Assembly: GCF_000266885.1 (NCBI RefSeq)
Contig: NC_018020.1
Location: forward strand, 2,666,001-2,730,000
Reading direction: 5' to 3'
DNA length: 64,000 bases
Source: Turneriella parva DSM 21527
GTDB lineage: Bacteria > Spirochaetota > Leptospiria > Turneriellales > Turneriellaceae
Shown: positions 53,588 through 57,343 of the stretch, piece by piece
How positions within the stretch are numbered: the first letter of the stretch is position 1
Layout: every line of letters starts with the position of its first letter
Made by a program: the position numbers and the translations under genes
Notes under the pieces: model-generated
What the model was told of the DNA's origin: nothing
Databases searched by the model: none
Seen by the model: the letters and a program-made list of their open reading frames with translations, nothing else

Positions 53588-55171
53588 TTATTCGTAGTAG
53601 ATTAGCTGAGCCAAGGTAGCATCAACCGGAAAATTATATATCTTGATTTCATCCATCAATCCTGTAATCGGATTCGCACCACCGTCGGGTGCACCGAACG
53701 TGAGCGTTGCGTTTGTATTGAAATCTGTTCGAATTGCGTTTGTAGTGCCTTCTTCAAAGCCATTGACATAAAGCGTCGCCAAACCGCTGAGGCGATCGAC
53801 GCTGATCATCACGTGGTTCCAGGTGACATCTGATATCAGGCCTCCAGGGGTAGAAATCGCCAAGCTGAGCGTCCCATTTCCGGTTTCGAAATTCACTGCG
53901 CCGGTCGCATCGACATAAAGTCGAAAGCCATCTGTGCTGGCACCAAGCCCCGAGTTGGCGACGATAACGCAACTGGTACTACAGGCGGTAACACTGGTGA
54001 TATTCACCCAGGCGGCAATCGTGAAAAAATTACCCGGATCTTGGCCCAAGATAGTCATGTTCGATGTTGAGCCGTCGAATTCACCAGCCTCGGTGCCGTC
54101 GTAAGAGCCCGTGCTTGAATCACCAATAGCTGTGCAGATTGCACTCCAAGGTGTCATAGAAAAACCGAGATTTGGGCAAGACGTCGCCGGTGCAAACATG
54201 TCGAACCAGTGGTCTGGTGGTGGGGCCAACGCAGCAGAAAAGTCTAAGCCAAGAAACCCGGCTGAATCCCACAAATCTTTCGAAGTGTGGCTGGTGATGA
54301 CATAAAGATCTTCGGTGAACCCATCGAAAAAATCGAACGCAGAAAATAGCACTAGATCATTTGCGGCGCTGTCGGCGTTGAACGTTGACATGCTAGTAAT
54401 GGAAAGGCCACTGAATGCAAGCGATGTGTCGAGGTCAAAAATCGGGCCGAAGTATTGCTGACCAGCGGCAGCAAATGTCGAACCGTAAAAGACCCCAATA
54501 ATTGCGTCTTCGTAACCCGAATTTTCTTGCCTGACCTGCGTTGCTGACGTTGCATTATCCATACCGTAGCCGAACGGCGTGACATTTGCACCACCAGGGT
54601 CAAATGAATGCCCGATGCCCGATCCGTCCGTTGAAAATAGTTTATTTCCATCGCCTGAGATGCCAATGATTGTGTGGCCAACGGTGGCAGTGTTATTTGT
54701 AATTGGTGATAAAGATGACGAACCGGGGTTTGTGGGGTCGACTGTCGCGGAGCTTATACCCGTATAATTCACGTAGACGACCACATTTGTCCCTGAGGCC
54801 TTCGCTGCGAATGAGATTTTTGAACCCGCGCCTATTCCGCTGGTGATTTTTTGCGGCGTGTTAAAGAAAGGTAAGAACTCGCCGTCAAAGGCAGTTGTCG
54901 ATTTCGCAACGTATAAGTCATGCAATCCACCCTGGTTCGAACCAAAAACCAGTGCCAGATATCCGTCACTCAGTTTAACCAGATATGGGCTATATTCGTC
55001 AGTACCCGGCTGTGAAATTGTCGACCCGTCGGCGAGGCGTAGGCTTGCCTTGCCCTTGATTTTGCCCAGCATCTCTTTCTCGCCTGGCACGGGCTTTGAG
55101 CAGTTGGCGGCGAGCAGCCCTAAGAGGGCGGCAAGTACCCACATGCTGGTGTTGCGCAGTTTCTTCGACAT
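53588..55171 (-). CDS. LamG-domain lipoprotein
   Basis: 527 residues from ATG 55171. Lipoprotein signal (MSKKLRNTSMWVLAALLGLLAANC, Cys24). The middle region (about 40-330) looks beta-propeller-like with Ser/Thr/Gly-rich strands (SDGYLALVFGSNQGGLHDLYVAKS). The C-terminal 200 residues form a LamG/concanavalin-like lectin domain: GEFDGSTSNMTILGQDPGNFFTIAAWVNITS, WNHVMISVDRLSGLATLYVNGFEEGTT, GLMDEIKIYNFPVDATLAQL. Such lipoproteins occur in families in leptospires, likely surface-exposed. The composition is lower in GC than the neighbours. It lies 163 bp after the haem-barrel gene on the same strand. Confidence 0.75.
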   Translation of the reverse strand: MSKKLRNTSMWVLAALLGLLAANCSKPVPGEKEMLGKIKGKASLRLADGSTISQPGTDEYSPYLVKLSDGYLALVFGSNQGGLHDLYVAKSTTAFDGEFLPFFNTPQKITSGIGAGSKISFAAKASGTNVVVYVNYTGISSATVDPTNPGSSSLSPITNNTATVGHTIIGISGDGNKLFSTDGSGIGHSFDPGGANVTPFGYGMDNATSATQVRQENSGYEDAIIGVFYGSTFAAAGQQYFGPIFDLDTSLAFSGLSITSMSTFNADSAANDLVLFSAFDFFDGFTEDLYVITSHTSKDLWDSAGFLGLDFSAALAPPPDHWFDMFAPATSCPNLGFSMTPWSAICTAIGDSSTGSYDGTEAGEFDGSTSNMTILGQDPGNFFTIAAWVNITSVTACSTSCVIVANSGLGASTDGFRLYVDATGAVNFETGNGTLSLAISTPGGLISDVTWNHVMISVDRLSGLATLYVNGFEEGTTNAIRTDFNTNATLTFGAPDGGANPITGLMDEIKIYNFPVDATLAQLIYYE

Positions 55172-55334
55172 AGGGCCAGCTTGGGTGTCTATATACAGAT
55201 TGCCAAGCATTTTGGGGGCAGACCGCGAATCTTTAGTCGGTGATTTATTCGTTCGACGCATACGCTGTTGTGACGGTGCGAGACACATTTGCGCGACAAC
55301 GGAATTGGCATACTTATGCCCTAATCTGCGCCTC

Positions 55335-56873
55335 TTAGAAATAGGCGTGGCTAATGATTATCCATTGCTTGTCGCTGAGGTTATCGAGCGGGTTGGCAAA
55401 TGAAGCGTCGGTAGCGCCGCCGGCCGGGCCTATCCACACGAGGCGGTACTCTACCAGCAGCTTGAACCAGCTGAGGGGTGTAAATTCGATACCGAAACCA
55501 TAACGACCCGTGGCCGTACCGCGCCGCGCGGTGTCTGCAACGTAATAATGATGGTTCACTTTCAGGTTGATGCCGCTAAAAAGCAGGTAATCCACGCCAA
55601 TAAATGAGGCATAAAACTGCCGGTTCGCAAAAGCACCGCTGTATTCGCCGACCGCCAATTCGCCCATAATGGTGAGCGGGTGCCTAAACCAGAAACGCCC
55701 GGGGTTGATGTAGCCGTCAACTGAGACTGCGCGCAAATTGCCGCCATATTCGCGCGCGCGCTCTTTCATCATTGCCGACGCACCCAAGCCATACGCGAGG
55801 TCGCGCCAGCCTGCGGCCACCGACGCACCGAACCCCTGCGGATTAATCACGAAATTCTGCGCTGCATCGCCGATGCGCTGGCCCCCGTTATTGGCGAAGA
55901 CGGCAACATTGAGGTAGGGGTAGTTCGCGGCAAGGCCCGCTTCGAGGCCCATGACTGCACTGTATTTGCGGCTGAGATCCATCTCGAAATTTCGCCGCAC
56001 GAACGCCGTGTGGTCTTCTTGACGAAGGCCAAACGTCGGTTGAAAAATACCGCCGCGCAGATAAAGCTGGTAAGGCAGTTCGTGCAGCATGAGGTAGGCG
56101 TTACGAATCGTATACATTTCGTCGGCGCGGCGGGGGCGCCCTGTGGTGAATTCATCGGTACGCCCGACAAGTCCCAGCGTAGCGGCAGCCGAAAAGTTAC
56201 GCACCGGTTGAACGCGCGCACCGAGATCGAATTGCATCGGGAAAAATGCTTCGCGTGTATCTGTTTTCAGGTACGCAAGGCGCATATCGCCGCCCACTTG
56301 CAGCAGTGGCCGTGCGTTCAGCTTGCCATAGATTCCGTATTCGGGGGCATATTTGTTTGCCCCCGGGGCCGCGCCGTACGGTGTGCCATAGACGAACGGG
56401 TCGTAGAGAAAATAGTCTGCGGGCAGGCCGTGCGTGCGGTATTTGTCTGCCTTCGTCGCCTGCGCCGGCTCGACTTTTTGAGGGACAGTGGCGTTAGCCG
56501 GTGGTAAAGCGGCCGGTTCTGCGGGCTTCTTTATGCGGGCAATCAGGGCACCGAGATTGCGGTCTCGGTCATGCCATGGGCGGGTTTCTGATTCCCAGAT
56601 CGGCAGCGTCGAACTCCCGAGATATCTACCCGCTGCAGTGCGCATGCCGCCGCCACCGGGGTCGGTGTGGCAGCCCTGGCAAGACATGTTGCATTTGCGT
56701 TCTGCAAGCGGGGGATCTTGCCATGCACGCTGTTTGTCCGTTTCAAAAGGGTAAGCATGGCAGCTGTCGCATTGCCTGCCTTCTCTCGCCGTATAGAGCG
56801 GTAAGCTATGAACCTGCAGCGAAAAGAGAAGCGCGGCGCAGACAAGAAATTTCGCCGCCGGCTTCAGGTGCAT
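55335..56873 (-). CDS. Outer-membrane barrel with N-terminal di-haem (CxxCH) domain
   Basis: 512 residues. Signal peptide (about 1-23), then CDSCH at 35-39 and CQGCH at 65-69, two canonical c-haem attachment motifs, with another Cys at 61. Residues about 90-150 are a Pro/Ala-rich linker (KPAEPAALPPANATVPQKVEPAQ). The remaining 350 residues are amphipathic beta-strands: MRLAYLKTDTREAFFPMQFDLGARVQPVRNFSAAATLGLVGRTDEF, LYLRGGIFQPTFGLRQEDHTAFVRRNFEMDLSRKYSAVMGLE and a final aromatic strand ISHAYF. This is a cytochrome-barrel fusion. It starts five bases after the Rieske gene stop, so the two form one operon. Confidence 0.8.
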   Translation of the reverse strand: MHLKPAAKFLVCAALLFSLQVHSLPLYTAREGRQCDSCHAYPFETDKQRAWQDPPLAERKCNMSCQGCHTDPGGGGMRTAAGRYLGSSTLPIWESETRPWHDRDRNLGALIARIKKPAEPAALPPANATVPQKVEPAQATKADKYRTHGLPADYFLYDPFVYGTPYGAAPGANKYAPEYGIYGKLNARPLLQVGGDMRLAYLKTDTREAFFPMQFDLGARVQPVRNFSAAATLGLVGRTDEFTTGRPRRADEMYTIRNAYLMLHELPYQLYLRGGIFQPTFGLRQEDHTAFVRRNFEMDLSRKYSAVMGLEAGLAANYPYLNVAVFANNGGQRIGDAAQNFVINPQGFGASVAAGWRDLAYGLGASAMMKERAREYGGNLRAVSVDGYINPGRFWFRHPLTIMGELAVGEYSGAFANRQFYASFIGVDYLLFSGINLKVNHHYYVADTARRGTATGRYGFGIEFTPLSWFKLLVEYRLVWIGPAGGATDASFANPLDNLSDKQWIIISHAYF

Positions 56874-56878
56874 CGCGC

Positions 56879-57343
56879 TCAGCCAGTGATCGTTAAAACA
56901 CCGGCATTATTCGTAACGGTATAAGAAACAAGACTTGCGCTCGTGCGGGCGCCGTTGCCAACGCCAGTGGCGCCGTAGAGCTGTTCGGTGTGGCGCTGGC
57001 ACTGCATCGAGGTTCCCGATTGCGCGACGATTTCGCCAGATTCATGAGGGCAGCGCCTGCCAAACGCGCGGTAAGTTGTGCCATCGAGCGTGACGATCAG
57101 GCCGTCGAGGTTCAGAAATTTCTGCGAATCGAGTGTGTTTTTCTGATCCGTTGTCAGGGTCAGCGACCCCGAGAAATTCTTGCCTTCAGCACCGTTCGCC
57201 TCGTCGCTCTTGGCACACGCCAGAAGGCAGTATACCAGGCTGACCGAGGTCACTCCGATAGTTGCTTTTCGCAAGAACTCCGCACGTGTCTGGTGATCGC
57301 CGGCGAGCCCTTCGTTGTTGGGTATTCTGTTTTCAGCGCGCAT
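56879..57343 (-). CDS. Rieske [2Fe-2S] lipoprotein
   Basis: 154 residues from ATG 57343 with GAGG correctly spaced. The leader TRAEFLRKATIGVTSVSLVYCLLAC looks like a Tat signal that has lost one Arg, ending in a lipobox with Cys43. The C-terminal domain has the Rieske ligands Cys98-Pro-His100 (GRRCPHESG) and Cys115-x-x-His118 (MQCQRHTEQ), with FGRRCPHESGEIV and LYGATGVGNGARTS around them. The usual extra disulfide Cys pair of bc1-type Rieske proteins is absent, so it is more arsenite-oxidase/ferredoxin-like. It likely passes electrons at the outside of a membrane to the di-haem barrel. Confidence 0.8.
   Translation of the reverse strand: MRAENRIPNNEGLAGDHQTRAEFLRKATIGVTSVSLVYCLLACAKSDEANGAEGKNFSGSLTLTTDQKNTLDSQKFLNLDGLIVTLDGTTYRAFGRRCPHESGEIVAQSGTSMQCQRHTEQLYGATGVGNGARTSASLVSYTVTNNAGVLTITG

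Follow-up and report, generated by a model that had tools for sequence, protein, structure and literature searches.

The window analysed here, a stretch of 64,000 nucleotides from the genome of Turneriella parva DSM 21527 (4,409,302 bp in two contigs), contains two neighbouring genes on its minus strand (Table 1). The upstream gene encodes a Rieske-like lipoprotein, and the downstream gene encodes a protein in which an N-terminal domain with two haem c motifs is followed by a linker and a predicted porin barrel. The order and lengths of the two reading frames, the gap between them, the Rieske ligands, the lipobox and both CxxCH motifs had been reported in a preliminary description of this DNA, and all of them were confirmed by the sequence. 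The short spacing on one strand is in keeping with a single transcript. A gene for a 566-aa protein with a Laminin_G_3 domain (window positions 53588-55288, minus strand; E 8.8e-21) begins 46 bp past the stop codon of the barrel gene on the same strand, and it may share a transcript with the pair.

Table 1. Positions in the window of the Rieske lipoprotein gene, the fused cytochrome-porin gene and their features.
Feature	Position	Strand	Description and basis
Rieske [2Fe-2S] lipoprotein gene	56879..57343	-	154 aa; ORF; homologues in genomes G156 and G048
Lipobox L-L-A-C43	57215..57226	-	Closes a Tat-like N-terminus (TRAEFLRKA); sequence
Rieske ligands C98-P-H100 ... C115-Q-R-H118	56990..57052	-	Sequence
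Gap from Rieske stop codon to barrel ATG	56874..56878	-	5 bp
Di-haem fused cytochrome-porin gene	55335..56873	-	512 aa; ORF; family of about 42 loci
First haem c motif C35-D-S-C-H39	56757..56771	-	Kept in 40/40 homologues
C61 and second haem c motif C65-Q-G-C-H69	56667..56693	-	Pattern KCNxSCxxCHxxPGGGG
Linker, residues about 106-185	56319..56558	-	Pro/Ala-rich in T. parva; variable in relatives
Predicted 16-stranded porin barrel, residues 189-512	55338..56309	-	AlphaFold2 model

The two encoded proteins

The full Rieske ligand pattern arose in 4 of 50,000 shuffles of the T. parva Rieske protein. Both the C-x-H ... C-x-x-H ligands and the lipobox cysteine C43 are invariant in the three members of its family, which are the T. 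parva protein and its homologues in the genomes G156 and G048 (48-52% identity), and the Tat-like N-terminus has a counterpart in the G048 homologue (YRRDFLRQ). Against the profile PF00355, the T. parva protein scores 16.9 bits (E 0.006), under the curated cut-off of 20.3, and its two homologues score 22.5 and 29.1 bits, above it. No NCBIfam family scored above its cut-off for either the Rieske protein or the barrel protein. The best matches of the Rieske protein in a structure library reached E values of only 0.09-0.6, and the structure model of the protein alone has a pLDDT of 34. The ligands are those of the Rieske proteins of bc1 complexes, arsenite oxidase and oxygenases; unlike these, however, the T. 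parva protein is a free-standing lipoprotein, and its only cysteines, at positions 39, 43, 98 and 115, do not include the disulphide cysteines. The usual Ser/Tyr hydrogen-bond residues are absent as well, and the absence of both features suggests a lower Rieske potential. We rejected a role as a bc1 subunit because no cytochrome b gene adjoins the Rieske gene. Elsewhere in the genome, a cytochrome b-like match lies in a 737-aa frame (G000:C1:2149753-2152133) that adjoins a haem-copper-oxidase-family gene, and the other PF00355 match is a 213-aa protein with no obvious membrane segment.

In the barrel protein, two CxxCH motifs appeared in none of 50,000 shuffles, and both motifs are conserved in all 40 barrel homologues that have an N-terminus; on these grounds, an origin of the motifs by chance was rejected. 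The first motif stands between [AS]xPxY and xxP, and in the second region C61, C65, C68 and H69 are kept in 40 of 40 homologues. The complete set of invariant or nearly invariant residues in the haem domain comprises P25, C35, C38, H39, P42, W51, P54, R59, C61, C65, C68, H69, G74, R78 and G82, and across the family this domain is conserved more strongly than the barrel. C61 is a third cysteine without a conserved partner cysteine, and it could, as a speculation from the sequence, be a distal haem ligand. The protein matches Cytochrome_C7 with an E value of 7.6e-4, under the curated Pfam cut-off, and the haem domain is modelled by AlphaFold2 with low confidence (pLDDT 35-55). Cytochrome c maturation genes were found in the T. 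parva genome; they also occur in relatives without the barrel, and their presence is therefore permissive and not specific.

The Pro/Ala linker of the preliminary description is present in T. parva but is not conserved in the family, and most of the linker has a pLDDT below 60. The proposed beta-barrel is borne out by the AlphaFold2 model (mean pLDDT 66), which has 16 strands between residues 191 and 511; among solved structures, its fold comes closest to the 16-stranded porins OprO, OprP, OmpF and BpsOmp38 (Z 20-23). Two barrel motifs, FPM (211-213) and DHT (287-289), are invariant or nearly so in the family. The structure search with the barrel model listed porins only and no fused cytochrome-porin, a result that excludes nothing; a sequence search of solved structures returned no match with the barrel itself and one irrelevant match (E 0.2) with its profile.

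The barrel family and its usual partner

The barrel family has no name in Pfam or NCBIfam, and we found no description of a di-haem fused cytochrome-porin family in the open-access literature. It occurs in few spirochaete genomes (8 of the 296 Spirochaetota genomes and 7 of the 48 genomes of the class) and in many Myxococcota, where 73 of 379 genomes match the barrel at E <=1e-5 and several tens of these matches span most of its length; Myxococcales members were added by a scan of genome contigs. The T. parva protein carries the features that are conserved across the 40-42 members, namely two CxxCH motifs, C61, FPM and DHT.

A small haem lipoprotein was recognised beside the barrel in 36 of the 40 loci. 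It is directly adjacent on the same strand in 33 of them (31 upstream and 2 downstream), often with overlapping gene ends, and in the other 3 it is encoded on the opposite strand, no more than about 1 kb away. A 37th locus, L058, has a short haem lipoprotein upstream of the barrel that was missed by the profile; L070 has no haem lipoprotein beside its barrel, and in G048 the haem lipoprotein is located 18 kb from the barrel on the same contig. The claim that a redox lipoprotein stands beside the barrel was sound. Two lipoproteins in the partner slot have their own layouts: the one at L017 (5328-5594, plus strand) is short, with a different haem layout and two CxxCH motifs, and the one at L058 (1-423, plus strand) is short, with one CxxCH plus a CxxxxCH.

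In about a dozen neighbourhoods from Myxococcota, the small cytochrome was the only conserved neighbour gene, and no other conserved gene that might point to a substrate was found; around most Myxococcota loci, further respiratory genes and multihaem cytochromes are missing. The Myxococcales MAG HKST-UBA02 carries five paralogous haem-lipoprotein/barrel pairs (L028, L029, L030, L031 and L033). At two of these five copies, L029 and L030, the barrel is followed by an ExtM-like lipoprotein with ten CxxCH motifs; the scan covered the one at L030, which matches ExtM NF040943 with an E value of 3e-21 but with a score far below the cut-off. A 997-aa ORF with 35 CxxCH motifs (L028:14124-17117) is found 4.7 kb downstream of a di-haem barrel pair in this MAG. 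In the genome G220, an ArsR-like regulator gene, identified by eye (L020:896-1369, plus strand), lies directly upstream of the haem-lipoprotein/barrel pair, which is a hint of metal or metalloid control.

Comparison with known systems

According to the preliminary description, no system of this layout had been described. That statement overlooked Cyc2, the fused cytochrome-porin of iron oxidisers, in which a single-haem domain is joined to a 16-stranded OprO/OprP-like barrel and which oxidises Fe(II); Cyc2PV-1, for example, is described as carrying its haem N-terminal to a 16-stranded porin of the OprO/OprP type (PMC8406198). Like Cyc2 and Cyt572 (PMC8406198; PMC5566968), the T. parva protein has a c-type haem domain at its N-terminus that is joined directly to a porin-like barrel of 16 predicted strands, the sequence [AS]xPx[YF] occurs right after the signal peptide and ahead of the first CxxCH, and redox genes can cluster with the gene. 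Unlike Cyc2, which has one CxxCH, the T. parva family has two in 40 of 40 homologues, 24-30 residues apart, together with an extra invariant cysteine, C61, and a linked haem lipoprotein or, in T. parva, a linked Rieske lipoprotein. The strict Cyc2 motif AXPXFAR[QK][TY] (PMC8406198) is present in none of the 40 family members and in none of the 14 single-haem cousins described below. Because the strict motif is absent and the comparison drew on the published motif and description of Cyc2, we do not file the T. parva protein as Cyc2; by analogy it would be Cyc2-like in its working.

The single-haem cousins (L081-L094) are Myxococcota barrels with one CxxCH that are homologous to the barrel of the T. 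parva family, and they match the di-haem family profile with E values of about 1e-21 to 1e-34. Their haem domain starts with A.P.FA.REG..CsaCHVN.TGGGMRT and is without the stretch of 24-30 residues that holds the second haem motif and C61; most are followed by an adjoining or overlapping gene with CxxCH motifs. Since the two families align on both sides of this stretch, the di-haem form resembles a single-haem fused porin into which a second haem motif has been inserted.

The combination of an outer-membrane porin with an exchangeable redox lipoprotein is shared with extHIJKL of Geobacter (PMC6148476; PMC5877670), and the ExtM-like cytochrome beside two Myxococcota copies is a further likeness. 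A longer Geobacter ext cluster includes a Rieske gene, extO, and ExtO goes with a membrane cytochrome b. However, the Ext systems consist of a separate porin and multihaem cytochromes, with no haem-porin fusion. MtrAB, MtoAB and PioAB also use a porin and c-type haems to move electrons over the outer membrane, but in these systems a separate decahaem protein sits inside a 26-stranded barrel and there is no Rieske protein, whereas in T. parva the two haem motifs and the barrel are in one chain and the pair has no separate multihaem cytochrome.

The partner of the T. parva barrel and its proposed role

Among the 40 loci with an N-terminus, a Rieske gene is found beside the barrel in T. parva alone. 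Searched with the profile of the haem lipoprotein, the T. parva genome yielded a single match, one domain within a 428-aa membrane protein whose gene lies in a purine-catabolism neighbourhood; a stand-alone homologue was not found. The close relative G220 (57% identity) carries the haem lipoprotein in the partner slot. T. parva, G220 and G110 form a group in the tree (100/99) that is nested in a clade whose members have haem partners, and the Rieske arrangement is therefore derived. In G110, which belongs to the same genus, the contig stops within the barrel gene and the partner is not readable. On balance, and with modest confidence, we favour the reading that this locus encodes a Cyc2-like electron conduit of the outer membrane, in which a Rieske lipoprotein took the place of the one-electron lipoprotein partner in the T. 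parva lineage; this exchange rests on a single genome. A more extensive reading joins this replacement of a c-type cytochrome to a second claim, that the di-haem porins and their carrier form a second class of Cyc2-like conduits that is common among Myxococcota and also occurs in free-living spirochaetes. We put this joint reading forward tentatively, as one that falls somewhat short of probable. An exchange of redox lipoproteins has a precedent in the conduits of Geobacter (PMC6148476), and in Bradyrhizobium cyc2 has a HiPIP gene in its cluster (PMC5566968).

By analogy with Cyc2, the favoured conduit would be an outer-membrane fused cytochrome-porin with two c-type haems in its small N-terminal domain. 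An external donor would meet the two haems at the pore or inside it, and single electrons would travel inwards, first to a one-electron carrier with a lipid anchor and then to the respiratory chain. For most relatives, this carrier would be the small haem c lipoprotein encoded beside the barrel. In T. parva, the Rieske lipoprotein would fill its slot and form an iron-sulphur-to-haem relay at the outer membrane. We infer the insertion of the haems and the cluster, the location and physical contact of the two proteins, the transfer of electrons and its direction, and the performance by the Rieske protein of the job of the replaced carrier. T. parva is a free-living, obligately aerobic, oxidase-positive spirochaete (PMC3746428) with three haem-copper-oxidase-family genes, and a terminal acceptor therefore exists; inward flow, that is, the oxidation of an outside donor, is favoured. 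The Rieske-to-haem-to-barrel path of the preliminary description survives in altered form: the Rieske protein occupies the slot of a one-electron haem carrier, and the usual partner of the barrel is the small haem lipoprotein.

For the same description, a separation of the Rieske and barrel genes in relatives would count against the idea, and such a separation was observed. Among 292 Spirochaetota genomes, 3 (T. parva, G156 and G048) proved to carry the Rieske family, and the two genes are adjacent only in T. parva, so a conserved Rieske/barrel unit was rejected. In G156, the Rieske gene is unlinked and a complete cytochrome-barrel pair is also present, which means that the Rieske protein may have a job of its own; in G048, the barrel, the cytochrome and the Rieske gene are all apart. 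Myxococcota yielded 3 weak generic Rieske matches in 379 genomes. Adjacency in one genome, the unlinked genes of both relatives and the intact pair of G156 all speak for the view that the fused cytochrome-porin is real and the Rieske gene a chance neighbour, the haem lipoprotein having been lost, another carrier having taken over and the Rieske protein working elsewhere. Against this view, the Rieske protein has the slot, the strand and the lipoprotein form of the lost carrier, with a gap of only 5 bp, and within Spirochaetota its family occurs only in barrel-bearing genomes. This co-occurrence has a hypergeometric probability of 1.4e-5 over the phylum but 0.07, not significant, within the family, and it is therefore suggestive only. 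We regard a chance neighbour as unlikely, although it deserves serious consideration.

Two other explanations retain the lipoprotein as a partner. The fold is that of an ordinary 16-stranded porin, most loci are without multihaem cytochromes nearby and no extracellular substrate is known, as would suit a redox-controlled solute porin in which the haem pair senses or gates, the lipoprotein sets the haem redox state and no respiratory electrons pass. Such a porin appears improbable to us, given that the haem domain is better conserved than the barrel, that the cytochrome partner is nearly universal and that ExtM-like decahaem neighbours accompany two Myxococcota copies. That decahaem neighbour is similar to ExtM, which belongs to the selenite/tellurite reduction operon of Geobacter, and Geobacter ext clusters act in metal reduction (PMC6148476); both points favour outward flow, in which the Rieske protein would feed the haem-porin for the reduction of external Fe(III), Mn(IV) or a metalloid oxyanion. 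However, T. parva is obligately aerobic (PMC3746428) and has no multihaem surface cytochrome beside the pair, and we consider outward flow highly improbable.

If the favoured reading of a Cyc2-like conduit is true, fused cytochrome-porins extend beyond the iron oxidisers, the group from which they are known. The two-haem branch and its carrier gene would then represent a compact means of electron uptake from outside in Myxococcota and some free-living spirochaetes. A search that relies on the published Cyc2 motif would overlook this branch, and A/S-x-P-x-Y...CxxCHxxP...CxxxCxxCHxxPxGGGxR would be a marker for such systems. The exchange in T. parva, for which a complete genome and a type strain are available for testing, would be a natural test of whether the identity of the carrier matters, with a Rieske cluster instead of a haem.
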